In this document: positions 5,179 to 18,296 of the stretch, in pieces | Numbering within the stretch: position 1 is the first letter of the stretch | Layout: each line of letters begins with the position of its first letter | Source: a virus | IMG/VR virus record: IMGVR_UViG_3300027816_000438 | Coordinates: 1 to 22,310 of that record | Strand: one strand, 5' to 3' | DNA length: 22,310 nt | The notes under the pieces: generated by a model | Databases searched by the model: none | Told to the model about the DNA's origin: nothing | What the model saw: only the letters and a program-made list of their open reading frames with translations | Made by a program: the position numbers and the translations under genes

Positions 5179-5798
5179 AGAATAACGTAATTATTTGTAG
5201 ATTGATATTTGGCAGTTTCTTGCGCCCATAGTTTATCGCACTTGCTTAACCCTTCATCTTTCATCCTTCGGTAAGGTGTGTCTTGCCCTACATCGTGTCC
5301 TATATGCTCCGACCTCATACCGCCTAAATAATAATTCAAGTGTCCTGTTTGTGTTAATCTAAAGCAATAGTCGCTATCCTGCATTCCATATGGATCATAC
5401 ACCTCATTAAACTTTCCTATCGTTTCAATTGCTTTCATCGGTATTAACACATTGCCAAATACCATATTGCTAATATGTATTGGGATATCGTTTACATAGC
5501 TTCTATCTTGCAAACCCTCTACGCAATGTATCCCACAAGTTCCCGTATTAGGAATAGCATAAGCCGCCTCTACCATTCTGGATAACCAATCATCGGGCAT
5601 CAAAATATCGTTTGCCATTACTACAACCGCATCGTATTGATAACTCCTACTGATTCCATAGTTGATGGCTCTTGCTATGCCTTTCATCTCAACCTCAACA
5701 AAGTCAAAATGAAACCCTGCATTAGAGAAGTTTACATTCTTAACCCTTTGGGTGTGTTCCTTTCTTTCGTAGTTTAGTAAAATTACATTAACGAGCAT
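5175..5798 (-). CDS. GT2-like (GT-A fold) glycosyltransferase
   Basis: The 207-residue protein has a nucleotide-binding N-terminal strand 'VNVILLNYER', a 'NYGIS' helix start near residue 47, and 'VVVMANDILMPDDWLSRM' near residues 57-75, where N-D replaces the usual D-x-D metal motif. The later segment 'FNEVYDPYGMQDSDYCFRL' is the typical acceptor/catalytic acid region (E/D-D-x-D-x-x-x-R) of GT2 enzymes. It would transfer a sugar from an NDP-sugar, but the acceptor cannot be read from the sequence. It overlaps its neighbours on both sides, and lies close to an LpxA-like acyltransferase and a GT-B enzyme, so these probably act on one glycan or surface target. Confidence 0.85.
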   Translation of the reverse strand: MLVNVILLNYERKEHTQRVKNVNFSNAGFHFDFVEVEMKGIARAINYGISRSYQYDAVVVMANDILMPDDWLSRMVEAAYAIPNTGTCGIHCVEGLQDRSYVNDIPIHISNMVFGNVLIPMKAIETIGKFNEVYDPYGMQDSDYCFRLTQTGHLNYYLGGMRSEHIGHDVGQDTPYRRMKDEGLSKCDKLWAQETAKYQSTNNYVIL

Positions 5799-6264
5799 TG
5801 CTTCCTATTTCTTTTACAGGCACTCCTGCGTATTTATAGTGAGGTCTTAAAATAGATTTCTTTCCTACGAATGCCGATGCGCCAATCATACACCCTTCGG
5901 GTATTCTTACCTTTTGATGTAACACCGCATTCATTCCTAAGTTGCAATTCTTTTCGATTATTGCTAACCCACCGACTTTAGCACCAGCACTCAATGTAAC
6001 ATTCTCGGCTAAGATAGCATCGTGCGCAACGTAAACGTGCTTCATTAGGTAACAACCCTTTCCGATAATCGTTCTTCTTTGCGTGCCACTATCCACCGTA
6101 ACAAAACCCGTTAACCTTGACCCCGACATTATTGTTACTAACCCCTCGCAATCTTCGTACCCTTTCCATTCTGGAGGCGCACCTATTACACAATATGCAC
6201 CGATATAAACATTGGGTTCGATAATCACATTTGGGTAGATAATAGCGGTAGGATGGATATACAT
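5788..6264 (-). CDS. LpxA-like left-handed beta-helix acyltransferase
   Basis: The protein of 158 residues is made of hexapeptide repeats (for example 'IIYPNVIIEPNVYIGAYCVIG') that form a left-handed beta helix. A 'KHVYVAHDAIL' segment (His76, His81) lines up with the 'AHIAHDC' catalytic region of UDP-GlcNAc O-acyltransferase LpxA, and 'GMNAVLHQKVRIPEGCMIG' matches the LpxA 'GGMTAVHQ' turn. It lacks the helical C-terminal domain of bacterial LpxA, so it is shorter (158 against about 260). It probably acylates or acetylates a nucleotide sugar or surface glycan. It is flanked by two glycosyltransferase genes. Its start codon shares one base with the preceding stop (TAATG). Confidence 0.85.
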   Translation of the reverse strand: MYIHPTAIIYPNVIIEPNVYIGAYCVIGAPPEWKGYEDCEGLVTIMSGSRLTGFVTVDSGTQRRTIIGKGCYLMKHVYVAHDAILAENVTLSAGAKVGGLAIIEKNCNLGMNAVLHQKVRIPEGCMIGASAFVGKKSILRPHYKYAGVPVKEIGSNAR

Positions 6265-7540: not shown

Positions 7541-7821
7541 TTTTTTGGTCTGCCTCGCTTTTTTTGCACTTCTGGTTGTGATTGTTCATTTTGCACTTTA
7601 GGTTGTGCAGCTAATTCAAATAAAGTAATCAATCTTTTAAGCATATCGAAAACACAACTACCACACCAATAAGTAAGGACAAATTGAGCATCTAAGTATT
7701 CGCGATACATTCTTTCGTACTCGCCTAAAACATCAAAAGGAATGTTTCGAGTAAAACCAAGTTTGACCGACTCAAAATTTATTATGTGTTGTTGACAAAA
7801 ATCAATGTCTTTTTGATTCAT
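7537..7821 (-). CDS. Hypothetical protein with AT-hook-like C-terminus, 94 aa
   Basis: A 94-residue protein of unknown family. The body is helical with aromatic residues ('EYERMYREYLDAQFVLTYW') and two Cys close together (C-G-S-C). The C-terminus is a low-complexity Gln/Pro/Lys tail ending in 'KKRGRPKK', an AT-hook-like G-R-P core that could bind the minor groove of AT-rich DNA. It overlaps both neighbours (four and 20 bases). No function is proposed. Confidence 0.6.
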   Translation of the reverse strand: MNQKDIDFCQQHIINFESVKLGFTRNIPFDVLGEYERMYREYLDAQFVLTYWCGSCVFDMLKRLITLFELAAQPKVQNEQSQPEVQKKRGRPKK

Positions 7822-8059
7822 ATAAATTGGTTAAAAAGTTTCTAAAAAATGGCGCAATAACTCCAGCACCAAACATACATAACATAGCTTCGGTTGCCAA
7901 TAAAGGAAGGATATAAAGAATTAAACCTACCCAAGCAGTCAGGCAAAGTGTACAATTAAACGGCTTAAAGTTTAGTTTCCACTTTTGCGGAAAGTTGTTT
8001 TGTACGATAAAATAAAAGCTAAAGAAGTTAGCCGCTAAGATGACTTCAAAGATTTTCAT
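7802..8059 (-). CDS. Small membrane protein with Cys-x-x-Cys, 85 aa
   Basis: The protein of 85 residues has two hydrophobic segments, at about residues 4-20 and 42-70, separated by a basic loop 'KWKLNFKPFNCTLCLTAWVG'. The 'KPF.C..C...W' pattern at the entry of the second membrane segment is familiar from small inner-membrane proteins of phages (similar to DUF1360-type). Function is unknown; a role in membrane metal binding or superinfection exclusion would be guesswork. It overlaps the sigma-like gene upstream by 14 bases. Confidence 0.65.
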   Translation of the reverse strand: MKIFEVILAANFFSFYFIVQNNFPQKWKLNFKPFNCTLCLTAWVGLILYILPLLATEAMLCMFGAGVIAPFFRNFLTNLYESKRH

Positions 8060-8549
8060 TATTCCTGATTTTATATTTCATTAATATTTTGGCTTTGCGT
8101 ATTGTCTTAATCAATGACCGATAAGGTATGTTAGTTTCTCGACTAATTGCTAAAAGATTTTTGCCATTGCTGGCATAAAGTTTTAACAATTCCGCTTCGT
8201 ACCAATGCAAAATACCTAATCCGTTTTCAAGTTTGTTTAAAAGTTCTTCATTGTAATCCTCTTTTGGTATATCGTAAGTTAATGGAATTTCCTGATAGAT
8301 TTGCCGAAATTTTTTGTAAAAGTTGCTTCGGTCGCTTTTAGCCATATTTAGAATAGTGCGAACAATAAAGTACTTTAAATACCCGCCATCGTACATTTCA
8401 AATAGCTTGACCTCATCCATCTCACATAAGACAAGAAATACCTCTTGCCGCAAATCATCCTGCAAATCGTACGGCTGCATTTTACCGATAGCATTGTTAA
8501 TATCTCTACTGAGATACATTTCTTGTATGATGAAATCACGTTTATTCAT
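8046..8549 (-). CDS. Sigma-70-family-like transcription factor, 167 aa
   Basis: The protein has a region-2-like helical part ('DLQDDLRQEVFLVLCEM', then 'YLKYFIVRTILNMAKS') and a region-4-like helix-turn-helix at the end ('LLAISRETNIPYRSLIKTIRKA'). This matches small sigma factors of Bacteroidota phages and ECF-type proteins. As the first gene of the minus-strand operon that leads to terminase and tail genes, it could switch on late transcription. I chose ATG 8549 ('MNKRDFIIQE'); an in-frame ATG at 8576 would add nine residues and cannot be excluded, since neither has a Shine-Dalgarno sequence. Confidence 0.75.
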   Translation of the reverse strand: MNKRDFIIQEMYLSRDINNAIGKMQPYDLQDDLRQEVFLVLCEMDEVKLFEMYDGGYLKYFIVRTILNMAKSDRSNFYKKFRQIYQEIPLTYDIPKEDYNEELLNKLENGLGILHWYEAELLKLYASNGKNLLAISRETNIPYRSLIKTIRKAKILMKYKIRNNENL

Positions 8550-8576
8550 TGAAAAACACCATCTAATATAATACAT

Positions 8577-8827
8577 ATTATTTCTCTTATTATTTTTATT
8601 CTTATCCTTCTTCTTATTATTATAGGGTATCTGGTAGAGTATGAAATACCTACCCTATACCTATCAAATGGGCTATTTTCACAAAATTATTTACTTTATA
8701 ACTAATTGATTTTCAATAATTAGAAAGAAATCTAAAAAAAACTTCAAAAAAGTCAAATAAATATTTTTTTATGTACAGAACAAGTTTGATATTTGTTATC
8801 GAAACAACGAACAAAAAACAAAAAACT
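8577..8827. promoter_or_regulatory. Divergent intergenic control region
   Basis: About 250 bases separate the sigma-like gene on the minus strand from the first early gene on the plus strand. The region is very AT-rich with T-rich and A-rich tracts and contains the inverted repeat at 8621-8659 and an imperfect palindrome at 8702-8723 (CTAATTG / CAAT-A-ATTAG with one extra base). It must hold the start signals of two opposed operons. I did not find a convincing Bacteroidota promoter (TTTG, 19-21 bases, TAnnTTTG) on either strand; a lone TAATTTTG occurs on the minus strand at 8682-8689 without a matching upstream box. Confidence 0.6.
8621..8659. promoter_or_regulatory. Inverted repeat, candidate operator
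   Basis: A perfect nine-base inverted repeat TATAGGGTA (8621-8629) / TACCCTATA (8651-8659) encloses a second, inner repeat GGTA (8633-8636) / TACC (8647-8650), offset by three unpaired bases. No T-tract follows in a terminator arrangement and no gene reads into it from outside, so an operator for a repressor or activator of the divergent operons is the better reading. Confidence 0.55.
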
Positions 8828-9058
8828 ATGAAACCTCAGACAAATACTTACAGAATTTATGATAGTATGGGTAGAAAAACAGAGATTTTAATTTTAGCAT
8901 CAAACATTAAAGATGCTTGTAAAGAAGCTAAAAAGAGAGAAGCTGAAATTGGCTCATCCTTTTACAAAGTCAAAAGATGCTATACAGGTGGAGTTAAAGG
9001 ACAACAATAATTTATATTTATTTAATCAAAAACAAAAACTATGAAACCGCAAACAAAA
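8811..9058 (+). repeat. Duplicated leader and first codons of two adjacent genes
   Basis: The A-rich leader and the first codons (M-K-P-Q-T) of the gene at 8828 (copy 8811-8844) are almost repeated in front of the gene at 9041 (copy 9027-9058): both read CAAAAA..ACTATGAAACC followed by a CA-rich codon run. The following sequences differ, so only the leader and start were copied, or were selected to be alike. Confidence 0.55.
8828..9010 (+). CDS. Small early protein, 60 aa
   Basis: The first plus-strand gene, starting 'MKPQTNTYRIYDSMGRKTEI'. An in-frame ATG further up (8771) would add 19 residues, but the ATG at 8828 is preceded by the same A-rich leader and followed by the same first codons as the next gene (9041), so I choose it. 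The product looks like a small beta-alpha fold ('LILASNIKDACKEAKKREAE') with a basic end. Such small proteins often lead early operons and act on host functions; no family is recognised. Confidence 0.65.
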   Translation: MKPQTNTYRIYDSMGRKTEILILASNIKDACKEAKKREAEIGSSFYKVKRCYTGGVKGQQ

Positions 9059-9124
9059 TTATTCATTGCCCTTTTGGTTATTTGCTACATTGTTGGTAAA
9101 TTACAAGACCAAATCTCTCTTTAA
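9041..9124 (+). CDS. Tiny membrane protein, 27 aa
   Basis: A 27-residue product, 'MKPQTKLFIALLVICYIVG' plus a short polar tail, with one hydrophobic segment at about residues 7-19. Start, leader and first five codons (M-K-P-Q-T) copy those of the preceding gene, which supports real translation. Membrane location is likely; function is unknown. Confidence 0.5.
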   Translation: MKPQTKLFIALLVICYIVGKLQDQISL

Positions 9125-9143
9125 TCTTAAAAACTAAACACCG

Positions 9144-9332
9144 ATGAAAATCAAAATCACAAACCAAAAAGACACAAAAGAAAGTCGTATCAATGATTTA
9201 AAACTTCGATTTAACCACCACCTGATATCGGAAGATTTATATCATTCAGCTTTGAAATATTTAAAACAAAACAAAACAATAATTTATTATACTGATATCG
9301 ATGGTGTTGTTCATAGCATCAAACATTCTTAA
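9144..9332 (+). CDS. Small early protein, 62 aa
   Basis: The 62-residue product is basic and polar, starts 'MKIKITNQKDTKESRINDLK', and ends with a beta-rich part 'IIYYTDIDGVVHSIKHS'. A middle helix 'FNHHLISEDLYHSALKYL' resembles a small SHOCT-like helical module (L-x-x-G/S-x-I-T/S-x-E-x-Y/F) but I am not sure of it. The leader CTTAAAAACTAAAC just before the ATG is shared with other early genes. Confidence 0.6.
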   Translation: MKIKITNQKDTKESRINDLKLRFNHHLISEDLYHSALKYLKQNKTIIYYTDIDGVVHSIKHS

Positions 9333-9362
9333 AAATATTATTAATCCTTAAAACTAAACACG

Positions 9363-9593
9363 ATGAAAATCCAATTAAACTTCTCAGCCGAAACCGCAAA
9401 TTACTTATTAGAAAACCCTACTTCACTTTTCAAAGTTGAGTTCGTAGGTGCAAATGCAACAACAGGGGAAATCACTTTAGAGTTCGATGCAATCAAAACC
9501 GAATGGCTTGCAATGGGGTTATTCCTTGCTGGTCAATCTTATACTATGAAACAAGTAAAATCTTTATTCAATGCGAACCGTATACCCGCCTAA
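9363..9593 (+). CDS. Small early protein, 76 aa
   Basis: The 76-residue product starts 'MKIQLNFSAETANYLLEN' and appears to have two beta strands, an acidic middle and a hydrophobic helix 'WLAMGLFLAGQSYTM'. No family is recognised. The leader CTTAAAACTAAAC lies six bases before the ATG, as in the neighbouring gene. Its end overlaps the next tiny gene by 23 bases. Confidence 0.65.
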   Translation: MKIQLNFSAETANYLLENPTSLFKVEFVGANATTGEITLEFDAIKTEWLAMGLFLAGQSYTMKQVKSLFNANRIPA

Positions 9594-9660
9594 CCCGCCA
9601 AAGGACTTTAACGAGTGGATTAAATATATCTACTCACTACTAAATACTCCGTGTCGTTAA
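9571..9660 (+). CDS. Tiny proline-rich protein, 29 aa (tentative)
   Basis: A 29-codon frame from ATG 9571 to TAA 9660 reads 'MRTVYPPNPPKDFNEWIKYI' and a short end. Composition (P-P-x-P-P-K-D-F, then an amphipathic helix) is natural rather than random, and the ATG falls within the end of the preceding gene, as in most junctions here. The frame is too short for certainty. Confidence 0.35.
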   Translation: MRTVYPPNPPKDFNEWIKYIYSLLNTPCR

Positions 9661-9689
9661 GGAGTTTAATCTGCAACGAATTAGAAAAG

Positions 9690-9724
9690 GGGGGAGGTTC
9701 TTATGGGTTATGGTCGCCTCCCCC
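9690..9724 (+). repeat. GC-rich hairpin
   Basis: GGGGGAGG (9690-9697) and CCTCCCCC (9717-9724) form a perfect eight-base stem around a 19-base loop, in an otherwise AT-rich region. No T-run follows, so it is not a standard intrinsic terminator for the plus strand. It lies 20 bases before the ATG of a tiny membrane protein and may shape that mRNA leader or end the upstream transcript. Confidence 0.5.
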
Positions 9725-9744
9725 TAATACTAAAAACCAAACTT

Positions 9745-9825
9745 ATGATTTCAATAATTATCGTTTGCTTGCTTATCTTAGCTTGTCTTTTTTTACTCGC
9801 TATACTATACACTTTAAAAAACTAA
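9745..9825 (+). CDS. Tiny membrane protein, 26 aa
   Basis: The product is almost entirely hydrophobic ('MISIIIVCLLILACLFLLAI' then a short basic end), a single membrane segment with a Lys-Asn C-terminus. An in-frame ATG 14 codons upstream exists inside the hairpin loop, but the chosen ATG follows an A-rich leader like those of other early genes. Its stop is three bases before the ERF gene. Function is unknown. Confidence 0.5.
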   Translation: MISIIIVCLLILACLFLLAILYTLKN

Positions 9826-9828
9826 ACT

Positions 9829-10428
9829 ATGTTAGCAAAAATTCAATCGCTTGTTAAAGCACCCAAAGGGCAATTTAACAAATTTGGTAACTACAAATAT
9901 CGCTCTTGCGAGGATATCGTTGAAGCCGTTAAACTCGTAATTAATCCGCTTGGCTTTTATCTTACCCTAATGGATGAGATTGTGTTAATCGGCAATAGGG
10001 TTTATGTAAAGGCAACCGCTACGCTTTCGAATGGCGAGCAAACGTATACGACTACCGCCTATGCAAGAGAAGAAGAAACCAAGAAAGGAATGGATGGCGC
10101 ACAAGTAACAGGTGCAGCCAGTTCCTACGCTCGAAAGTATGCACTTAACGGATTGTTCGCTATCGATGATACAAAGGATGCCGATGCCACAAATAACCAC
10201 GATACACCAACGGAACAAGAGAAAGTATTATTAACCAATTTAATGTTAGATACTGACCTATCTGCTACCGAAGCAAAGTCGGCTTTAACTGCGATTACTA
10301 ATTGTTCCGATTACAAAACGTACCAAGCTATTCAGCATCGCCTTGAAAACAGAAAGAAGCCAATCGACCAAATCGTTAATCCTACTCAAAAGGATATTAC
10401 TAACCACCTCAAAAAATCAGTAAAATGA
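9829..10428 (+). CDS. erf: ERF-family single-strand annealing protein
   Basis: ERF proteins anneal complementary single strands during phage recombination and genome circularisation. The 199-residue product has the ERF signature: an N-terminal 'LVKAPKGQFNKFGNYKYRSC' followed by 'NPLGFYLTLMDEI', then the core 'GAQVTGAASSYARKYALNG' with 'FAIDDTKDAD' at about residues 87-117. The C-terminal part (residues 118-199) is variable and ends in a basic helix. It overlaps the next gene by four bases (ATGA). SSB-like and NinG genes downstream complete a recombination module. Confidence 0.93.
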   Translation: MLAKIQSLVKAPKGQFNKFGNYKYRSCEDIVEAVKLVINPLGFYLTLMDEIVLIGNRVYVKATATLSNGEQTYTTTAYAREEETKKGMDGAQVTGAASSYARKYALNGLFAIDDTKDADATNNHDTPTEQEKVLLTNLMLDTDLSATEAKSALTAITNCSDYKTYQAIQHRLENRKKPIDQIVNPTQKDITNHLKKSVK

Positions 10429-10898
10429 ACATTACTACCTACACCGATTTAAGCCTATTTGAAACCTCAAAAGCGGAACGCTTATCATTTGCCCAATCGG
10501 TCATAAATAGCGCAAAGGATGGCTTAATAAGCCCCTTAAAGCTACACTTGCAGGTTAAGTGCTTAGAAGATTTGATTAAGCAAATAACAAGCAACCCCGA
10601 CTATAAGGAACTAACCTTAGATGAAGCCTATAAGTACGGCAAAACATTTGAGCAATACAATGCCAAATTTGAGATTAAAGAGATGGGTGTTAAATACGAT
10701 TTTGCGACTTGTGGCTGCCCGATAATGAATGACCTATTATCTCAGCAAGAGGAATTAACTAAGGCTATAAAAGAGCGAGAAAAGTTCCTAAAAACTATCC
10801 CACCGCAAGGATTAGAAACCTTAATTGAAGATGAAGTCGTTACTCTATACCCTCCGCAAAAAACATCAACCACCTCAATAAGCGTTAACCTAAAATGA
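10425..10898 (+). CDS. Recombination-module protein with coiled coil, 157 aa
   Basis: A 157-residue acidic and helical protein. Residues about 23-75 and 103-125 ('LLSQQEELTKAIKEREKFL') are predicted by eye to be amphipathic helices, and a Cys-x-Cys occurs in 'FATCGCPIMND'. I recognise the layout as a protein often found directly after annealing or exonuclease genes in phages of this group (host-nuclease-inhibitor-like or unknown), but I cannot name the family with confidence. It overlaps both neighbours by four bases, so it is co-translated with ERF. Confidence 0.6.
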   Translation: MNITTYTDLSLFETSKAERLSFAQSVINSAKDGLISPLKLHLQVKCLEDLIKQITSNPDYKELTLDEAYKYGKTFEQYNAKFEIKEMGVKYDFATCGCPIMNDLLSQQEELTKAIKEREKFLKTIPPQGLETLIEDEVVTLYPPQKTSTTSISVNLK

Positions 10899-11134
10899 AA
10901 CAAGGTAAAACGGAACTACCCATCCTTATCAATGGGGTAACAATATTGGTTATTATTCGCTGGTGGTACACACCAGAAATAAGACCAACCTTCAATGATC
11001 CGTATGGCGAGCCTTATGATTTTACTTATGAGATTATTTGGCACAACGCACCGGATGAAATCAGCGAAGAAGAATTGATGGATCAAATAGATGGAATTGG
11101 TATATTTGAGATAATGGAATTTAATAACCCTTAA
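10895..11134 (+). CDS. Small acidic protein, 79 aa
   Basis: The 79-residue product has an N-terminal beta hairpin ('ILINGVTILVIIRWWYTP'), a Pro-rich middle and an acidic C-terminal half ('APDEISEEELMDQIDGIGIF'). It could be a small DNA-mimic-like or protein-binding factor, but this is only from charge. It overlaps the preceding gene by four bases and no family is recognised. Confidence 0.6.
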   Translation: MKQGKTELPILINGVTILVIIRWWYTPEIRPTFNDPYGEPYDFTYEIIWHNAPDEISEEELMDQIDGIGIFEIMEFNNP

Positions 11135-11144
11135 AACGACAGAA

Positions 11145-11273
11145 ATGCTAGCAAACATCCAAAAGGTCGGTAACTCGTACAGAGTACGGGTGCAGAAAAA
11201 CGGCAAGCGTGTAAGTAGAAATTTCACGAGCCGAAAGCAGGCATTGGAGTTCCGTAAGAAACTCGGTGTTTAG
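11145..11273 (+). CDS. Orphan Arm/AP2-type DNA-binding domain protein, 42 aa
   Basis: The 42-residue product, starting 'MLANIQKVGNSYRVRVQKNG' and ending 'SRKQALEFRKKLGV', looks like the three-strand-plus-helix Arm-site binding domain found at the N-terminus of tyrosine integrases (also called AP2-like). The usual SAM-like and catalytic domains are absent and no integrase frame follows. It could be a free-standing DNA-binding protein, as seen in other phages, or the remnant of an integrase. A CTTAAAAC leader element precedes it. Confidence 0.6.
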   Translation: MLANIQKVGNSYRVRVQKNGKRVSRNFTSRKQALEFRKKLGV

Positions 11274-11280
11274 TAATGGT

Positions 11281-11347
11281 AACTCGGTTGGTGTAATTGG
11301 TAGCACCTTTCTTAGAAAACGAGCAGGTTCGAATCCTGCACCGAGTT
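11281..11347 (+). tRNA. tRNA-like gene with a shortened anticodon arm
   Basis: The acceptor arms ACTCGGT (11282-11288) and ACCGAGT (11340-11346) pair perfectly, and one more A-T pair at 11281/11347 is possible. T8 (11289), A14, G18-G19 and A21 fall in the standard positions around a D stem GTG(T)/(G)CAC. The T arm GCAGG-TTCGAAT-CCTGC (11323-11339) is canonical. Between D arm and T arm only about 16 bases remain instead of 22-23; they can form a mini-hairpin TTTC-TTA-GAAA. No normal seven-base loop with a T33 and closed five-base stem can be drawn, so no anticodon can be assigned. No CCA is encoded. Confidence 0.6.
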
Positions 11348-11374
11348 CTTTCTTTAACTTAAAACAAAAACAAA

Positions 11375-11629
11375 ATGGAAAAGAAAATCTACTGCGGAAG
11401 CGGTAAAAAGCGAAGCGACAATTGGATTAGTGCAACTATCAATCTCGACAAGATTAAAGAACACATCCAAGAGTACAACGGAAGTAAGTTTATCAAAGTA
11501 AACATTAACTTAAAAGCCGAGCCTGACCAATACGGTAAAGACGTTGCTATTACGATTGATACTTGGAAGCCAGAAGAAAAATCTAAATTCACACACGATA
11601 ATACTCCACCCGCTGACTTACCCTTCTAA
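11375..11629 (+). CDS. Small single-stranded-DNA-binding-like protein, 84 aa
   Basis: The 84-residue protein starts 'MEKKIYCGSGKKRSDNWISA', has a beta-rich core ('KFIKVNINLKAEPDQYGKDV') and ends in 'PPADLPF'. The acidic-proline tail ending D-L-P-F mimics the D-D-I-P-F tail by which SSB recruits partner proteins. Together with its place between ERF and NinG, this suggests binding of single-stranded DNA in recombination. It is shorter than classic SSB (about 110-180 residues) and I do not see a complete OB-fold signature. Its stop and the ATG of ninG share one base (TAATG). Confidence 0.65.
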   Translation: MEKKIYCGSGKKRSDNWISATINLDKIKEHIQEYNGSKFIKVNINLKAEPDQYGKDVAITIDTWKPEEKSKFTHDNTPPADLPF

Positions 11630-12006
11630 TGGCAAAGCTAACCCCACTACCCAAGCTACTAAAGAAAGCACAAGCGATATATAATGCCCACATCAGAGAA
11701 CGTGATGAAAAGTTAGGTTGTATCTCTTGCGGTGGCGAAGTACAACAAGCAGGGCATTATTTTTCGCAGGGGCAACACTCCGCTTTACGATTCGGATTAC
11801 CTCACACTTTAGCCTATCACAATACTAATGGGCAATGCATTAGGTGCAATATGTTTCTGCACGGAAACCTAATTAAGTACCGACAAGGCTTAGTCAATAG
11901 GTTTGGCGAAGATTATGTAAGGGAATTAGAAGCCGAGGCAGAAAACAATCGCTTAAAGAAATGGAGTAGGGATGAACTTGAAATCATAATTGAAACTTAT
12001 AAATAA
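11629..12006 (+). CDS. ninG: NinG/Rap-like recombination nuclease
   Basis: NinG of lambda promotes phage recombination as a structure-specific nuclease. The 125-residue protein has the family landmarks: 'GCISCGG' (Cys31, Cys34), 'QAGHYFSQG' with the conserved G-H, 'SALRFGLPH', then 'NGQCIRCNMFLHGNLIKY' (Cys70, Cys73) and 'RFGEDYVRELEAEAE'. The four Cys form a zinc site in an HNH-like fold. It is somewhat shorter than lambda NinG (about 200 residues), lacking the basic N-terminal extension. It is the last gene before the sharp change to AT-rich DNA. Confidence 0.9.
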   Translation: MAKLTPLPKLLKKAQAIYNAHIRERDEKLGCISCGGEVQQAGHYFSQGQHSALRFGLPHTLAYHNTNGQCIRCNMFLHGNLIKYRQGLVNRFGEDYVRELEAEAENNRLKKWSRDELEIIIETYK

Positions 12007-12011
12007 ATAAT

Positions 12012-12284
12012 ATGAATATTTTAGAAAAGGCAAATGAAATAGTTAATTTAAGGTCAGAAGAAAAAGAAAGACAATATGGTAGTTTTTCAGAAGGAATGGT
12101 AAACGCAGCGAATTTATTTAATTGCTTAACAAATAATAAATATAATATAAAACCAGAAGACATGTATATGTCAATGGTTGCATTAAAATTAAGCAGACAG
12201 GCATTTAATCATAAAGAAGACAATCTTCTAGACTGTGTTGCATATTTAGCTGCACTTAATAACTATATAAATGAAAAAATATGA
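12012..12284 (+). CDS. DUF6378-like (MazG-related helical) protein, 90 aa
   Basis: The 90-residue protein begins 'MNILEKANEIVNLRSEEKER' and continues 'QYGSFSEGMVNAANLF', 'MYMSMVALKLSRQAF', 'NLLDCVAYLAALNNYI'. The order 'R-x-x-Q-Y-G-x-F', 'M-x-x-x-K-x-S-R' and 'D-x-x-x-Y-x-A' is what I know of DUF6378 phage proteins, an all-helical group thought to be related to nucleotide pyrophosphohydrolases. It is the first gene of the AT-rich cassette, starts six bases after ninG and overlaps the next gene by four bases. A role in the nucleotide pool would suit the cassette, but activity is not shown. Confidence 0.65.
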   Translation: MNILEKANEIVNLRSEEKERQYGSFSEGMVNAANLFNCLTNNKYNIKPEDMYMSMVALKLSRQAFNHKEDNLLDCVAYLAALNNYINEKI

Positions 12285-13153
12285 AAAAAGGTATTATAGG
12301 GATATTAAATAACCCAGCTACATCAATAAATTCGCACTCTAGTGGTATGGTAAATATAGTAAAAAACTTATTTGATGCCGATATATTATCAGAAACAGAT
12401 AATTGGGATAATTATGATCAATTAATAATTTATCATGGTCCTAATTTTAAAAAGGGTGTATTTAATATTATAGGAGGTATAAATGATGGCGTAAAAAATA
12501 GATGCAATAAATTAATAAATTATAAAGGATTAATTAAGTCATTAGACGGTTTTCAATTTATAGATTTTATTAATAAAAGAAAATTAAATTACTCATATAA
12601 TAATATGTTTGAAGAAATAGAATTACCTGAAAAAAATAATATAATTATTGGTGATTCCCATTCAATATCGGCATGGTTTAATAAAGAATACACAATAAAA
12701 AGAATTGATGGCAAAACATTATATGGTTTTTTAAAATTAAACTATGATTTATCAAATTATGATAAAAAAATTATATATTTTGGAAATATAGATATAAGAT
12801 TCCACATATGCAGATTAAATAATCCAGAACTAGAACTAAATTTATTAATAGATAAATATTTAAATTATTGTCATAAATACAATTGTGAAATAGTTAATTT
12901 ATTACCTATAGAATCTGAATCAAGAAAAATACCTGGAACTGGATTGTATAAAGGAGAAAAGTATTTTGGATCAATGCAACAGAGACAGGAATTAGTTTAT
13001 ACATTTAATAATTCTATAAATAATTCAGGTTTAAAAACATATAAGTGGCCAGAAAAATGGTATAATAATATAGATTATTATGAAAATAATGTTATGGAAC
13101 CAAAACAATCTGTACATATTAGACCGAAATATTATCAAAAAAATTTAATATGA
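12281..13153 (+). CDS. SGNH-hydrolase-like protein with an unknown N-terminal domain, 290 aa
   Basis: Residues 1-110 form an alpha/beta domain I cannot name ('GIIGILNNPATSINSHSSGM' at about 4-23 and 'YHGPNFKKGVFNIIGG' at about 51-66). Residues 120-285 look like an SGNH hydrolase: 'IIIGDSHSIS' with Ser126 as block I, 'YFGNIDIR' (Gly168-Asn169) as block III and 'SVHIRP' (His279) as block V; the usual Asp three residues before the His is not there, with Glu273 nearby. SGNH enzymes act on esters or transfer acyl groups. In this cassette it may process an intermediate or decoration of a modified base, but that is inference. It overlaps both neighbours by four bases. Confidence 0.6.
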   Translation: MKKGIIGILNNPATSINSHSSGMVNIVKNLFDADILSETDNWDNYDQLIIYHGPNFKKGVFNIIGGINDGVKNRCNKLINYKGLIKSLDGFQFIDFINKRKLNYSYNNMFEEIELPEKNNIIIGDSHSISAWFNKEYTIKRIDGKTLYGFLKLNYDLSNYDKKIIYFGNIDIRFHICRLNNPELELNLLIDKYLNYCHKYNCEIVNLLPIESESRKIPGTGLYKGEKYFGSMQQRQELVYTFNNSINNSGLKTYKWPEKWYNNIDYYENNVMEPKQSVHIRPKYYQKNLI

Positions 13154-14115
13154 ATATAAATCCTATACTATTAGACGCCTTAGATGAATATCATGAAAAG
13201 AGTTTATTAATGCAATCATTTTATTATGATAAAAATTGCATCATAAAATCAGAAGAAGAATTAAAATACTTGATCGATGATGATTTGATTTTTCATGTTC
13301 CTATATATGATATGCTAGATAGGAAATACGCAGCGTTTTCTTCTTTTTTAGAAGCTATTGATAAAAAACACAATGATCCAAAAGGAAATGGTATTAGATT
13401 TCAAGATCATAAAATTACAGAAGAAATAGACAAACTTATGTTATTTTATTTATTTAGGTTATGTGGATCAGGTATTGATTATAAACCAGGTTCACATGGT
13501 TTTGGTAATTTTTGGATAGTTAATAGTATATTAAATAAAAAATATACAACATCTTATTGGTTAGAAGATTTACCACAAAATAAATTTAGTAATAATTCTG
13601 GTTATTTATTACCTCAATTTTCTATAGGTTTACGAAATTTTATATTAAAATATAGCGTTGAATTGGTTAATGAATTATATAGATATATAAAAAATGGTAA
13701 TATTAATATTATAGACTTTGTAAATCATGGAAATAAATATTTAAACGAATTAGGTTTTAAAAAGCAAAAATTTGTTTTAAGTGCATTTGCCGCTGATATT
13801 GCTGAATATTTTCCTAATTATATTAATAGACAGAGTATGATATTTCCGGGGACTAATGCTCAAAAATGTATAAAAGCAATATTTGGTAAATGCAATCACT
13901 TAGAGGCGATACAATTTTTGGCTAATAGGTATAATTCTGTTCCATACAGTGTTGAAGATTCTAGATTATGCGATCCAATAAGATATTTTTTAGATTACCA
14001 ATCAAAGTATCATATAGCAAAAAATAATAACATAGTTTATAAAAACAACTCTAAATTAAAAAAAATATGGAGCAAACAAGAATACCAAAATTTTCAATCA
14101 CTTCTTCGCAAATAA
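13150..14115 (+). CDS. DNA-hypermodification-associated protein, aGPT-Pplase-like (HhH-glycosylase fold), 321 aa
   Basis: The protein is almost all helical. Landmarks are 'LMLFYLFRLCGSGIDYKPG' at 96-114, 'GFGNFWIVNSIL' at 117-128, 'LGFKKQKFVLSAFAADIAEY' at 201-220, 'MIFPGTNAQKCIKAIFG' at 230-246 and 'SVEDSRLCDPIRYF' at 267-280. I associate this layout with the alpha-glutamyl/putrescinyl-thymine pyrophosphorylases (aGPT-Pplase, amino acid:DNA transferases) described from thymidine-hypermodified phages, which displace a pyrophosphate on a base and attach an amine. The call is from pattern memory and is moderate. Its neighbours, a PLP enzyme and a synthase-family hydroxymethylase, are the usual company of that family. 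Confidence 0.45.
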   Translation: MNINPILLDALDEYHEKSLLMQSFYYDKNCIIKSEEELKYLIDDDLIFHVPIYDMLDRKYAAFSSFLEAIDKKHNDPKGNGIRFQDHKITEEIDKLMLFYLFRLCGSGIDYKPGSHGFGNFWIVNSILNKKYTTSYWLEDLPQNKFSNNSGYLLPQFSIGLRNFILKYSVELVNELYRYIKNGNINIIDFVNHGNKYLNELGFKKQKFVLSAFAADIAEYFPNYINRQSMIFPGTNAQKCIKAIFGKCNHLEAIQFLANRYNSVPYSVEDSRLCDPIRYFLDYQSKYHIAKNNNIVYKNNSKLKKIWSKQEYQNFQSLLRK

Positions 14116-14924
14116 ATAAAGATAATATTTATACAAAAGAAGAATATCTTGAGATGGTTGATAATTTTGAAAGTAGTTTTGACAAACCAGTAGAAGAAAA
14201 TTACAATGGTATTAGAGTAATAAGAGAAGATTTAATTTATGTAGGTTCAAAAGCTAGAGCTGGAGAATATCTAATAGCTAATTGCAAATCAGATAAAATA
14301 GTGTATGTTCAACCAAGATATGGCTTCGCTGGTATTTCTCTTACCAATTTATGTAAAAAATACAATAAGAAGTTGATTTTATTTATGCCTTCTAGTAAAA
14401 TTATATCCGAACATCAGGCTTATTGTATTGAACAGGGTTGCGAATATTATTTTTATAGGATTGCGGCAATGCCTAATTTAAATAATATAGCTAAAAGATG
14501 GTCAGAAGAAAATAATGCATATTTCATTCCATTAGGTTTAAAACACCCATTAGTTACAGCAATGATAATCAAAACGGCATCAACAATAAAAGAACCTAAA
14601 AGATTTTGGACAGCCGTATCAACTGGTGTTTTAAATAGAGCGCTACAAATAGCTTGGCCTAATTCAGAGGCTTTCGGTGTCGCTGTTTCTAGAAATATTA
14701 AAGATGGAGAAAAAGGAAGAGCAAATATGATTTCTCATTATAGAGATTTTCATCAAGATTCATTAATATTGCCTCCATTTCCAAGTGCTAAAAACTATGA
14801 TGCTAAAGTTTGGGAATATTTAAAAGAGGGTGATCTATTTTGGAATGTAGCAGGAGAAATAAAATCAAGTATAAATAAATTAAATATTAAATCACAAAAA
14901 AACTGGAAAAATGAAACTATCTAA
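14067..14924 (+). CDS. PLP-dependent enzyme, fold type II-like, 285 aa
   Basis: The segment 'YVGSKARAGEYLI' (residues 58-70) matches the Schiff-base lysine region of tryptophan-synthase-beta-type PLP enzymes, making Lys62 the likely PLP lysine. 'PRYGFAGISLTNLCKKYNKK' followed by 'LILFMPSSK' mirrors the S-x-G-N-H-x-x-x-x-A ... MP stretch of the small domain, with N-H replaced by F-A. 'AVSTGVLNRAL' (183-193) is a plausible phosphate-binding loop. In thymidine-hypermodified phages PLP enzymes remodel the amino acid attached to the base, for example by decarboxylation; a like role here is inferred. The ATG at 14067 overlaps the upstream gene by 49 bases; a later ATG (M30) is also possible. Confidence 0.7.
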   Translation: MEQTRIPKFSITSSQINKDNIYTKEEYLEMVDNFESSFDKPVEENYNGIRVIREDLIYVGSKARAGEYLIANCKSDKIVYVQPRYGFAGISLTNLCKKYNKKLILFMPSSKIISEHQAYCIEQGCEYYFYRIAAMPNLNNIAKRWSEENNAYFIPLGLKHPLVTAMIIKTASTIKEPKRFWTAVSTGVLNRALQIAWPNSEAFGVAVSRNIKDGEKGRANMISHYRDFHQDSLILPPFPSAKNYDAKVWEYLKEGDLFWNVAGEIKSSINKLNIKSQKNWKNETI

Positions 14925-15213
14925 TGAGTTTGATGACATCAGACAATGGGCAAAAGAAAGAGGAATATATGAAAAAGGGGATCCTAAAACACAACTTTTA
15001 AAATTAATCGAGGAAACTGGTGAATTATCAAAAGGAATACTAAAATTAAATCAAGAAGAAATTGTTGACGCAATAGGGGATTGCGTTGTAGTTTTAGTTA
15101 ATTTGTCAGAATTATGCAAATTGAATTTTGAAGATTGTGTAAATTCAGCATTTGATCAAATAAAAAATAGAAAAGGAGAAATGAAAAATGGAACATTCGT
15201 TAAGAGCATATGA
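14911..15213 (+). CDS. MazG-family nucleotide pyrophosphohydrolase
   Basis: The 100-residue protein has the MazG metal-binding motifs: 'KLIEETGELSKGI' (E-E-x-x-E at about residues 33-37) and 'IVDAIGDCVVVLVNL' (E-x-x-D near 50-58). These hydrolyse (d)NTP to (d)NMP and pyrophosphate. In the cassette it could remove canonical dCTP or dTTP, or feed dCMP/dUMP to the hydroxymethylase three genes downstream. It overlaps the preceding gene by 14 bases and the following gene by 26. It is one of three pyrophosphohydrolase-like genes in the window. Confidence 0.85.
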   Translation: MKLSNEFDDIRQWAKERGIYEKGDPKTQLLKLIEETGELSKGILKLNQEEIVDAIGDCVVVLVNLSELCKLNFEDCVNSAFDQIKNRKGEMKNGTFVKSI

Positions 15214-15559
15214 TTCTAATTACTTTGGTTCTAAGTTAAATTATTTCGTATCTAATTATTGTAAAAAAACAATGGTTGTCAATAATATCGACATGATTAT
15301 TAATGATTATGAAAATAAAATAATTTCGTTAATAGAAAGCAAACATGACAAGGAACCAGTAAGAAAGGGTCAAAAATTAACATTAACAAAATTAAGGCAA
15401 ATATTACCAAAAAAACAAGATGGTTGGACTATAAGAGTTTTAGTAATAAGAGGTAATTATCCTTATGATACCGCAACTTTAGAATCAATAGATGGAACTT
15501 ATAAGAAACAAGTTAATAAAAATGAATTAATAAACTTTTTAAATGGTAAATCAATATAA
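15188..15559 (+). CDS. Small PD-(D/E)XK nuclease-like protein, 123 aa
   Basis: The 123-residue protein has 'NNIDMIINDYENKIISLIES' with Asp35 and then E50-x-K52 in 'IIES-KHDKE', the D...ExK layout of the PD-(D/E)XK nuclease fold, followed by a helix ('GQKLTLTKLRQIL') that often carries a further active-site Gln. A C-terminal beta part ('TIRVLVIRGNYPYDTATL') fits the fold. The family appears in phages as uncharacterised proteins. It may cut host or unmodified DNA, or take part in recombination; neither is shown. It ends in a one-base overlap (TAATG) with the hydroxymethylase gene. Confidence 0.55.
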   Translation: MEHSLRAYDSNYFGSKLNYFVSNYCKKTMVVNNIDMIINDYENKIISLIESKHDKEPVRKGQKLTLTKLRQILPKKQDGWTIRVLVIRGNYPYDTATLESIDGTYKKQVNKNELINFLNGKSI

Positions 15560-16206
15560 TGTATTATAAAAAATTTAATAATGCCCAAGAAGCATTTGAA
15601 TATTATTATGACTTAATCAATAACTATGGAATTTTTGTTAATAATACAAAAGTTCTTTATAATGTAGGTTTTGATATTTTAAACCCAATGGATAATAAAA
15701 TAGAAACAGTATGGAGAAAATGGAATAAAGATTATGCAGATTATGAATGGAATTGGTATTTAAATGGTAACAATAATGCTGAAGAAATATCTAAAAAAGC
15801 AAAAATATGGAAAAACATGATGGATGAAAATTGCAACGTTAACTCAAACTATGGATATCAGTGGAGAAGGAATAACCAACTAGATAAAGTAATAGAATTA
15901 TTAAAAAAAGATAATACAACAAGAAAAGCATCTATTTCACTATATGATGGAAAAGAAATAGATTTGTATAAAAAGGATACAATATGCACTTATGCAATTA
16001 ATTTTTATATTTTAGAAAATAAATTAAATATACAGGCATTAATGAGAAGTAATGATTTGGTATATGGATTTTGTAATGATCAATATTGTTTTTCTAAACT
16101 TCAAGAATTAGTTGCTAATGAGTTAAAGATAGATATTGGAACATATTTTCATTACTCTTGTAATATGCATATATACGAAAAACATTATAATTTAAAAAAT
16201 AAATAA
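15559..16206 (+). CDS. Thymidylate-synthase-family nucleotide hydroxymethylase, probably dCMP-specific
   Basis: The C-terminal 120 residues align with E. coli ThyA without gaps: Cys143 (catalytic, ThyA Cys146), Arg163-Ser164 (ThyA Arg166-Ser167), Asp166, His204 and Tyr206 (ThyA His207, Tyr209), with the same spacing (20 residues Cys to Arg, 30 from the base-reading position to His). ThyA Asn177 is Asp174 here, as in T4 dCMP hydroxymethylase, where it selects cytosine over uracil. 'NYGYQWRRNNQ' and 'NTTRKASI' are the other family landmarks. The enzyme would put a one-carbon unit from methylene-THF on C5 of dCMP (or dUMP), giving a 5-hydroxymethyl nucleotide. At 215 residues it is short. Confidence 0.8.
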   Translation: MYYKKFNNAQEAFEYYYDLINNYGIFVNNTKVLYNVGFDILNPMDNKIETVWRKWNKDYADYEWNWYLNGNNNAEEISKKAKIWKNMMDENCNVNSNYGYQWRRNNQLDKVIELLKKDNTTRKASISLYDGKEIDLYKKDTICTYAINFYILENKLNIQALMRSNDLVYGFCNDQYCFSKLQELVANELKIDIGTYFHYSCNMHIYEKHYNLKNK

Positions 16207-16207
16207 C

Positions 16208-16648
16208 ATGAATACACACGAACAAGCCAAACAATTAGTAGAAAAATTTTGTCAATATTATAATTTAGAACCTAAGAATTTAAAACGAAAATCTGCATAT
16301 CCTTTAAAAGTTATTATTAAAAATGGAACTTATGTTAATACAGCATCAATAAGAATGTCATTAGGATACTTTTTATTTATGCATTTCCCTTTACGAATTA
16401 AAGAAGTAGCAGTAATGGTTGGCTATGCTGATCACTCAACATTAAGTTCTCAACGTAAACAAATCACATCGTATATAAAAAATAACGATAGCTACTTTAT
16501 GCCTTATTATGCAAAATTATATAACTTAGCGAAAGAACTCGGGATATCAACTGAATACCAAAGAGCCTGTACTCAATCAATTCCTTTTATGCGTTACGAA
16601 AGCGATGCTTCATTTTTAGAAAATATAAAATACTATGAAAATGCCTAA
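16208..16648 (+). CDS. DnaA C-terminal-like DNA-binding protein, 146 aa
   Basis: Residues 48-92 carry the DnaA domain IV-type helix-turn-helix: 'SIRMSLGYFLFMHFPLRIKE' followed by 'VAVMVGYADHSTLSSQRK', where D-H-S-T-(V/L) is the DnaA-box recognition signature. There is no ATPase domain. Such small proteins are common in phage replication modules and probably bind an origin. The gene is AT-rich at its start and near flank composition at its end, so the boundary of the cassette falls inside it. It overlaps the next gene by 14 bases. Confidence 0.75.
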   Translation: MNTHEQAKQLVEKFCQYYNLEPKNLKRKSAYPLKVIIKNGTYVNTASIRMSLGYFLFMHFPLRIKEVAVMVGYADHSTLSSQRKQITSYIKNNDSYFMPYYAKLYNLAKELGISTEYQRACTQSIPFMRYESDASFLENIKYYENA

Positions 16649-17255
16649 GCGATTTACTGACACCGACATTTGGGAAAAAGAATGGTTTATGTCTCTATCC
16701 CCAACCGATAAATGCTTAGTCAAATATGTAAGAGATAAATGCGACCTTGCTGGAATTTGGAAACCTAATTACACCTTAGCATCTTACGTTATTGGCGATA
16801 AAGTCGATGAAAAAAGATTAGTTAGTATTGATAACGGAAAGCAATTTGAGGCTTTGCACGATGATAAAATACTCTGCATTGACTTTGTACGCTTTCAATA
16901 TGGAACGGAACTAAACCCAAGCAGTCCGATACATAGAAAAGTTATTGATATTCTCTCTCGTTATGATATAGAACACGAAACAAAGAATGTAATTGCTCGT
17001 GGGTTTGTTAAGCCAACCATTGATGATATTAAGGAAGAAATGATGAATAAGTGGGATGAAAAGAACGCAACGTATCAAGCCAATAGATTTTATGATTACT
17101 ATGAAAGCAATGGATGGTTCGTAGGTAAGAATAAAATGAAATCCTGGAGGCACGCAGTATCCGGATGGATGGCACGCACAAAGATTGAACCCACACAAGA
17201 AAGCATCGCACATAAACTTGAACTAATAGGAAACAAAAAATTTAGCGAACTATGA
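16635..17255 (+). CDS. Replisome organiser/helicase-loader-like protein, 206 aa
   Basis: The N-terminus 'MPKRFTDTDIWEKEWFMSL' with 'KCLVKYVRDKCDLAGIWKPN' is the winged-helix start of phage replisome organisers (DnaD-like and Rep-O-like proteins), and the middle reads 'ILCIDFVRFQYGTELNPSSP'. These proteins melt the origin with DnaA-type partners and help load a helicase. The C-terminal part ends in a helix pair ('WRHAVSGWMARTK'). Two starts three codons apart are possible (16635, 16641). Position directly after the DnaA-like gene supports the call; overlap at the end is four bases. Confidence 0.75.
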   Translation: MKMPKRFTDTDIWEKEWFMSLSPTDKCLVKYVRDKCDLAGIWKPNYTLASYVIGDKVDEKRLVSIDNGKQFEALHDDKILCIDFVRFQYGTELNPSSPIHRKVIDILSRYDIEHETKNVIARGFVKPTIDDIKEEMMNKWDEKNATYQANRFYDYYESNGWFVGKNKMKSWRHAVSGWMARTKIEPTQESIAHKLELIGNKKFSEL

Positions 17256-17788
17256 GCAACCCAGCATTTGATTACCTAAGACAATTTAAAAAGATAAGCG
17301 ATGATACCGAAGCATTGGTAACTAAGTTTATCAAAAAGAAATATCCCGAACTTGGAATGAATGAACTCGTACAAATATTTGAAAACGGCATTGCAGGTGA
17401 GTACGGTAAGATTTACTCTGCTGACCCCGAAACGATTTTGGATTGGATTAGAAAACACATTACAAACAAAGGGCAGCAAAGAAGCTACTACGAACAACCC
17501 TTACTTACGGCTGATGTTTCAATGTACGATAATCGATACCCCGAAAAGCAAGAGGATTGGAATAAAGAAGTAAACAAAGCATTCACTTCGTTTTTGAATG
17601 GCATAAGTACAGCACAGATGCATCCGCATATTTACGATAGACTTATGGTCGATAGTAAAATACCTTTAAATGCATATCTTAAACATTACACGAATGATGT
17701 AACAATAGCCAAGCAACAAACATTGAAGGATTATTTTTCTACCTGTAAAGATAAGGGTTTTACTTACATTTATTTTATTAAGCAATGA
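17252..17788 (+). CDS. Replication-associated protein, 178 aa
   Basis: A helical, mostly polar protein of 178 residues with 'GMNELVQIFENGIAGEYGKI' near residues 34-53 and 'ETILDWIRKHI' following, a layout I know from uncharacterised proteins next to replisome organisers in Bacteroidota phages. No catalytic motif or membrane segment. It overlaps its neighbours by four bases on each side, so it is co-translated with them. A helicase-loading or primase partner role is possible but unproven. Confidence 0.55.
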   Translation: MSNPAFDYLRQFKKISDDTEALVTKFIKKKYPELGMNELVQIFENGIAGEYGKIYSADPETILDWIRKHITNKGQQRSYYEQPLLTADVSMYDNRYPEKQEDWNKEVNKAFTSFLNGISTAQMHPHIYDRLMVDSKIPLNAYLKHYTNDVTIAKQQTLKDYFSTCKDKGFTYIYFIKQ

Positions 17789-18096
17789 ACGCAGCCGACA
17801 AATTAAAAGTATTCAACGAGATTACTAATCATTCATTCGTTGAAATAAGCCTTACATATGCTCGTAATTACGAGAAGAACCCAAAGGCATTTATCAGCGC
17901 ATATAAACAATATAACTCAATCCGTTTGGTGTGCGATTGGATTGTGTACACCTATAAGTACATTGGTGCGTTCGATGAATGCAAAGCACTTGGTAAAGAT
18001 TTTACCGAATGGGCAAGCAGGCAAGACGTTGATGATAAACACAAAACCAATTTAGCAAACATTATGCTTATCATTTATTCAATCTTAAAACAATGA
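17785..18096 (+). CDS. Small hypothetical protein, 103 aa
   Basis: A helical protein of 103 residues ('IRLVCDWIVYTYKYIGAFDE' in the middle, a charged end 'ASRQDVDDKHKTNL'). No family is recognised and there is no motif to suggest activity. It overlaps both neighbours by four bases and belongs to the replication gene string. Confidence 0.55.
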   Translation: MNAADKLKVFNEITNHSFVEISLTYARNYEKNPKAFISAYKQYNSIRLVCDWIVYTYKYIGAFDECKALGKDFTEWASRQDVDDKHKTNLANIMLIIYSILKQ

Positions 18097-18296
18097 AATG
18101 CAAGAAATGTAAAGAAAGCAAACCGCTTGAGGAATTTGCTTTATTCAAAGGTTACAGAAACAAAGAATGCAGGGTATGCGCAAAAGGGTCAAGCACTTTC
18201 TTTTTGCATCCCGAAAGTTTTTACAATCTATTAGTAGGGCAAGAGGAATGGCGGCATATGTACTTCGAAAGAACGATAACCACCAGAAAGAAATAA
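18093..18296 (+). CDS. Small zinc-ribbon protein, 67 aa
   Basis: The N-terminus has 'MKCKKCKESKPLEEFAL', then 'NKECRVCAKGS': two C-x-x-C pairs (Cys3/Cys6 and Cys26/Cys29) that form a zinc ribbon of the HNH-associated 'C..C....l..F....' type. The catalytic part of an HNH nuclease does not follow. It may bind DNA or a protein partner. It is the last gene of the plus-strand operon, and its stop codon at 18294-18296 directly abuts the stop of the opposing gene. Confidence 0.65.
   Translation: MKCKKCKESKPLEEFALFKGYRNKECRVCAKGSSTFFLHPESFYNLLVGQEEWRHMYFERTITTRKK

Follow-up and report, generated by a model that had tools for sequence, protein, structure and literature searches.

The window analysed here, a stretch of 22,310 nt from an uncultured phage (IMG/VR record IMGVR_UViG_3300027816_000438), encodes a thymidylate synthase-family protein which, judging from its active-site residues, is very probably a dCMP 5-hydroxymethylase. 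Upstream of it lies a three-gene cassette resembling DNA hypermodification cassettes of the aminoacyl type. The hydroxymethylase itself is of a known kind, and its pairing with such a cassette is new. The phage probably builds a heavily modified cytosine not yet described, although an earlier mention of this gene combination is possible. The features of the region are given in Table 1.

Table 1. Features of the hydroxymethylase region in the window, with the basis of each assignment.
Feature	Position	Strand	Basis
DUF6378 protein, conserved hydroxymethylase neighbour	12012..12284	+	PF19905, 7.9e-13; in 65/80 loci
SGNH-fold enzyme (GDSH...GNID...SVH)	12281..13153	+	44RR ORF233c homology (tblastn, alignment); AF2 model
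Amino acid:DNA-transferase / aGPT-Pplase-like protein, DNA-glycosylase (AGOG-like) fold	13150..14115	+	AF2 model
Fold-type II PLP enzyme, homologous to phage M6 gp052	14067..14924	+	phrog_7093, hhalign, blastp
MazG-like nucleotide pyrophosphohydrolase, candidate dCTPase feeding dCMP	14911..15213	+	PF03819, 2.3e-7; 45/80 relatives
123-aa protein without assigned function; many relatives have dCMP deaminase there	15188..15559	+	No Pfam match; gene orders
Predicted dCMP 5-hydroxymethylase, thymidylate-synthase family, 215 aa	15559..16206	+	PF00303, PDB sequence matches and residues
Codon of Ser96, two before Tyr98 (T4 Ser94)	15844..15846	+	Ser in 80/80
Codon of Asp140, three before Cys143 (T4 Asp145, water-activating)	15976..15978	+	Signature in PMC6400193
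Codons of catalytic Cys143 and Thr144 (E. coli Cys146, His147)	15985..15990	+	Alignment
Codon of Asp174, base-reading residue (E. coli Asn177, T4 Asp179)	16078..16080	+	Alignments; conserved 80/80

The open reading frame of the predicted hydroxymethylase begins with ATG and its translation falls in the thymidylate synthase superfamily, matching PF00303 at 7.6e-25 (88 bits against a cut-off of 24.3) and phrog_160 at 4.6e-38. The best sequence matches in PDB were the CMP 5-hydroxymethylase MilA (1e-15) and T4 dCMP hydroxymethylase (2e-12), and ordinary thymidylate synthases were also found among the matches. In alignment with E. coli ThyA, E63 of the window protein corresponds to E58, W84 to W80, Y98 to Y94, C143 to C146, R163-S164 to R166-S167, D166 to D169, H204 to H207 and Y206 to Y209, while D174 occupies the position of N177. 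The catalytic set of the superfamily (E58, Y94, C146, R166, D169, H207 and Y209) is complete. Direct counting gave the same spacings in both proteins, with 20 from Cys to Arg, 31 from Cys to position 177 and 30 from position 177 to His. The original prediction, which placed Asp174 at Asn177 of ThyA and the remaining catalytic residues at unchanged distances, was thus confirmed by alignment and count, and its statement that T4 dCMP hydroxymethylase has Asp in that place is borne out by Asp179 of T4 gp42.

Residue 177 is the published determinant of base choice. Asn at this position reads uracil and Asp reads cytosine, as known from mutagenesis cited in PMC8670742 and structural discussion in PMC5175136 and PMC6400193; these papers also bear out the earlier claim that the Asn-to-Asp change in thymidylate synthase shifts the preference from dUMP to dCMP. 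A metagenomic study found the strongest association with modified DNA at positions 177 and 147 (PMC8670742). Asp177 is common to T4 gp42, 44RR gp42 and MilA. ThyA has Asn177, and so do the synthase-family proteins encoded by the phages SPO1, M6, ViI and phiW-14, whose DNA contains 5hmU or thymines derived from it (PMC6449724); the SPO1 gene is annotated as dUMP hydroxymethylase. With Asp174, the window protein possesses the residue of the cytidylate hydroxymethylases (dCH/CH) and not the Asn of SPO1-type dUMP hydroxymethylases. Its Thr144 stands at position 147, where T4 gp42, 44RR gp42 and MilA also have Thr, and the enzymes of SPO1, M6, ViI and phiW-14 combine Asn147 with Asn177 and are without Trp80. 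The window protein and T4 gp42 have the motif MRSND.V.GF.ND in common, and the deoxyribose pair Ser167/Arg126 of the T4dCH type is present as Ser164 and Arg122. The type of reaction is indicated by a published hydroxymethylation signature, made up of an Asp at position -3 from the catalytic Cys and a Ser at position -2 from the catalytic Tyr (PMC6400193), which the window protein shows as Asp140 and Ser96 in the T4dCH manner. The signature is kept among the relatives described below (Asp in 79/80, Ser in 80/80). Asp before Cys also occurs in SPO1-type enzymes, and ThyA has Leu there. After H207, 11 residues follow in the window protein, compared with 57 in ThyA and 30 in T4 gp42, leaving no C-terminal folate lid. 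The signature and the absence of the folate-sealing tail together predict dCMP hydroxymethylation, and since hydride transfer is disfavoured without the lid, the product would be 5-hydroxymethyl-dCMP.

A scan of viral contigs yielded 80 relatives of the hydroxymethylase, 46-100% identical to it. Asp177, Ser167 and W80 were each found in 80/80, and the occurrence of Asp177 in all the relatives fetched as well as in T4 gp42, 44RR gp42 and MilA indicates that it is not a chance feature. Position 147 is Thr in 54 and Asn in 26 of them. The 26 Asn147 proteins, which also have Asp177, form a subclade (L058, L061, L074, L077 and relatives; ARSIDLVYGFCND), and in many of its members an extra gene without assigned function is situated inside the cassette. 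As a sequence feature shared with SPO1/M6-type enzymes, Asn147 in this subclade counts against the dCMP hydroxymethylase reading. The phylogenetic tree supported the clade of the window protein at 97/99, apart from the clade of T4 and 44RR gp42, while the deep branches were weak. The tree gives no supported joint placement with T4 gp42, and the predicted function is argued from residues rather than from orthology. The closest match in an isolate was that of Bacteroides phage BF503P1 (51% identical). BF503P1 (L001:5110-5916), L052 and L059 also possess a second synthase-like protein with Asp177 in which Glu58 is changed to Leu or Met and Trp80 to Tyr; in L052 and L059 its gene adjoins a carbamoyltransferase gene, and it is possibly an altered paralogue. 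No named phage matched the region by megablast. Positions 7559-18173 of the window (10615 bases) match IMG/VR contig 3300032050_001497 (L006) without a difference, which makes the latter a second record of the same virus.

The genes around the hydroxymethylase are partly conserved. DUF6378 was found in 65/80 of the relatives, MazG-like and dCMP deaminase genes in 45/80 each and dUTPase in 33/80; hhalign of DUF6378 against the MazG-like cluster showed no relation. Some relatives carry decorating enzymes near the hydroxymethylase gene. L040 has a T4-type alpha-glucosyltransferase (PF11440, 1.9e-15), an enzyme shown in T4 to act on 5hmC, and L041 has a TET-associated glycosyltransferase (TAGT; PF20691, 7.8e-14), a kind of enzyme which also acts on 5hmC. 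L059 has a carbamoyltransferase (PF16861, 7.5e-27) with homologues in L052 and L060, and such an enzyme acts on 5hmC (PMC8670742). The presence of these 5hmC decorators supports cytosine independently of residue 177. Elsewhere in the window, an LpxA/NeuD-like hexapeptide acyltransferase (5788-6264) with adjoining glycosyltransferase-like ORFs was found on the minus strand between 5175 and 7540, near the terminase genes.

The first gene of the cassette encodes a protein whose AF2 model (pLDDT 85.6) matched SGNH esterases at Z up to 12.8. Its GDSH, GNID and SVH motifs are conserved, and it has a homologue in the N-terminal part of ORF233c from Aeromonas phage 44RR. The second protein gave an all-helical AF2 model (pLDDT 87), which shares the fold of an ADDT-domain protein in BFVD (E 7.7e-10, TM 0.75) and more weakly matches phiW-14 HMUDK_hel and aGPT-Pplase1 proteins. 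In PDB, the model matched AGOG-type DNA glycosylases (AGOG Z 8.7) and a queuine-salvage enzyme at Z 8 to 9, values modest for a helical protein, and no solved amino acid:DNA transferase was among the structures listed. No Pfam family was matched above the cut-off, including PF18724 (ADDT) and PF18723 (HMUDK_hel), and so the protein is called ADDT/aGPT-Pplase-like and not a member of the superfamily. Sequence searches likewise gave no match for tblastn of this protein and of one relative against named phages, for its profile in 11 named phage records, or for hhalign of the profile against the single sequences of M6 gp051 and the C-terminal part of 44RR, and a scan of genome contigs found no relative of the family. 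The earlier point on aGPT-Pplase holds by fold. The third protein, a PLP enzyme, matched phrog_7093 at 1.7e-36 and M6 gp052 by hhalign (95.6%) and blastp (1e-5); in M6, gp052 adjoins the genes of the amino acid:DNA transferase and the 5-hmdU kinase. In thymine systems the hydroxymethyl is phosphorylated first (PMC6449724). The 5-hmdU kinase domain PF18748 had no match in 17 records, one of them of 136 kb, although virus records may be fragments.

The cassette is exchanged for another gene in close relatives. In L007, L008, L010 and L011, whose hydroxymethylases are 89-90% identical to that of the window, the DNA alignment with the window ends at 12279-12289 and restarts at 14908, and one SAM methyltransferase gene replaces the three cassette genes exactly. 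This methyltransferase is of 250 aa (L007:1859-2608, L008:1859-2608, also in L010 and L011) and could methylate the hydroxymethyl of 5hmC. Of the 54 loci that reach 3 kb or more upstream, 24 have the cassette, 19 the methyltransferase, none both and 11 neither (Fisher p 3e-7, relatedness not corrected). This pattern suggests that the decoration module is swapped while the hydroxymethylase core stays constant. As these loci had been chosen by their hydroxymethylase, a second test was anchored on the families of the first two cassette proteins in viral contigs. It gave 138 loci, several of them overlapping fetches of the same contigs so that the counts are not all independent, and 115 had a synthase-family gene. 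The Asp type was present in 112/115, the remainder having only fragments short of position 177, and the Asn147/Asn177 type of SPO1 and M6 was found in none of the 115. The 8 distinct Asn177 proteins in these loci all resemble canonical ThyA (His147), and every phage that encodes one of them also has an Asp enzyme. Canonical ThyA (His147, Asn177) stood beside the Asp enzyme in 12 loci, overlapping fetches included, and the Asp enzyme is not needed for dTMP in a phage with its own ThyA.

These results bear on three other activities of the enzyme. It may be a dUMP hydroxymethylase as in SPO1, M6 and ViI, with the cassette decorating thymine as in M6. The resemblance of the PLP and transferase components to thymine-hypermodification parts and the dUTPase (33/80) and dCMP deaminase (45/80) genes beside the relatives would suit this, but the Asn177, Asn147 and missing Trp80 of the SPO1, M6, ViI and phiW-14 enzymes, the 0/115 count for their type in cassette loci and the 5hmC glucosyl- and carbamoyltransferases of the relatives make it improbable. 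Methylation of dCMP to 5-methyl-dCMP is still less probable; an Asn-to-Asp mutant of thymidylate synthase does methylate dCMP (PMC8670742), but the window protein has the Asp140/Ser96 signature, has Met in place of Trp83 and shows no C-terminal lid of the kind that closes off thymidylate synthase. Preference for the ribonucleotide CMP is the least probable of these, for although MilA was the top PDB match by sequence, its ribose determinants are Ala176/Lys133, against Ser164 and Arg122 here as in dCMP enzymes. The original prediction of a dCMP and not a dUMP hydroxymethylase is supported by residue 177, Thr at 147, Asp before Cys, Ser before Tyr and the Ser/Arg pair, along with the known 5hmC-decorating enzymes adjoining the relatives' genes.

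From these residues, folds and co-occurrences we infer the substrate, product and incorporation of the modified nucleotide and the order and chemistry of the cassette steps. Cys143 would attack C6 of dCMP, with the cytosine bound and protonated by Asp174 and the one-carbon unit delivered by methylene-THF. Water activated via Asp140, Ser96 and Tyr98 would then attack the exocyclic methylene to give 5-hydroxymethyl-dCMP, which would be phosphorylated to the triphosphate and enter the DNA instead of dCTP, the MazG-like enzyme being a possible dCTPase. After replication, the cassette would couple an amino-acid-derived group to the hydroxymethyl of 5hmC and remodel that group, a decoration which would protect the phage DNA. 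We lean towards cytosine as the target of the cassette. The alternative in which the enzyme is correctly assigned but the cassette has a target other than cytosine in DNA, leaving 5hmC as the final base, appears unlikely, though clearly less so than the other activities weighed above; this judgement concerns the cassette step only and overlaps with that on the preferred explanation. It would agree with the negative search for a priming kinase domain in the 17 possibly fragmentary records and with a transferase call made from a predicted fold at ~20% identity. Against it stand the strict exclusion of cassette and methyltransferase at the same place (24 and 19 loci, 0 with both), the near-exclusive pairing of the cassette with the Asp-type enzyme and the DNA-glycosylase fold of the second cassette protein. 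For the preferred target, 5hmC in DNA, we tentatively propose that in this phage and hundreds of uncultured relatives 5hmC receives an amino-acid-derived group without the help of a kinase; the SGNH enzyme would have a part in activating or trimming the hydroxymethyl, and the glycosylase-fold transferase would attach the group. A related route may operate in T4-like Aeromonas phages that have no glucosyltransferases. The SGNH enzyme would, as a speculation, be a candidate for an alternative step to hydroxymethyl phosphorylation.

Among the known systems, T4 gp42 is of the same family as the window protein and shares with it Asp177, Thr147, Asp before Cys, Ser before Tyr, Trp80 and the MRSND.V.GF.ND motif, but it belongs to a separate clade and has 246 aa against 215, the C-terminus of the window protein being shorter. 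The CMP hydroxymethylases MilA and BcmA also hydroxymethylate cytosine nucleotides, and MilA shares Asp177 and Thr147, but it has the Ala/Lys ribose pair where the window protein has Ser/Arg. The thymidine hypermodification systems of M6, ViI and phiW-14 (ADDT, 5-hmdU kinase, PLP enzyme) resemble the window in the M6 gp052-homologous PLP enzyme and the ADDT/aGPT-Pplase-like transferase fold. The window differs from them in its Asp-type rather than Asn-type synthase and in the added SGNH enzyme; the 5-hmdU kinase domain was not found in the 17 possibly fragmentary records. A metagenomic dCMP hydroxymethylase with a 5hmC carbamoyltransferase (PMC8670742) likewise has Asp177 and an adjoining decoration enzyme; the window has the SGNH-transferase-PLP cassette instead, and carbamoyltransferases occur in the relatives L052, L059 and L060. 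Amino-acid-type DNA hypermodification is known from thymine. A cassette of this type tied to a dCMP hydroxymethylase leads one to expect a new kind of cytosine in phage DNA and yields testable gene sets. ORF233c of Aeromonas phages 44RR and 31 is homologous to the window SGNH enzyme in its N-terminal part; in 44RR (L106:6001-8388) the SGNH family domain belongs to a single long protein of 795 aa whose C-terminal part has a weak resemblance to HMUDK_hel, with a match below the cut-off. Such SGNH homologues occur in Aeromonas T4-like phages which have gene 42 and no glucosyltransferase (tblastn; PMC2993671), and in 2010 the decoration of hmC was left open for gene 42 phages without glucosyltransferases such as Aeromonas 44RR, 31 and 25 (PMC2993671). 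Proteins of the 44RR ORF233c type are candidates for hmC modification in Aeromonas phages, and may account for the decoration of hydroxymethylcytosine in 44RR, 31 and 25, if it is decorated there at all.
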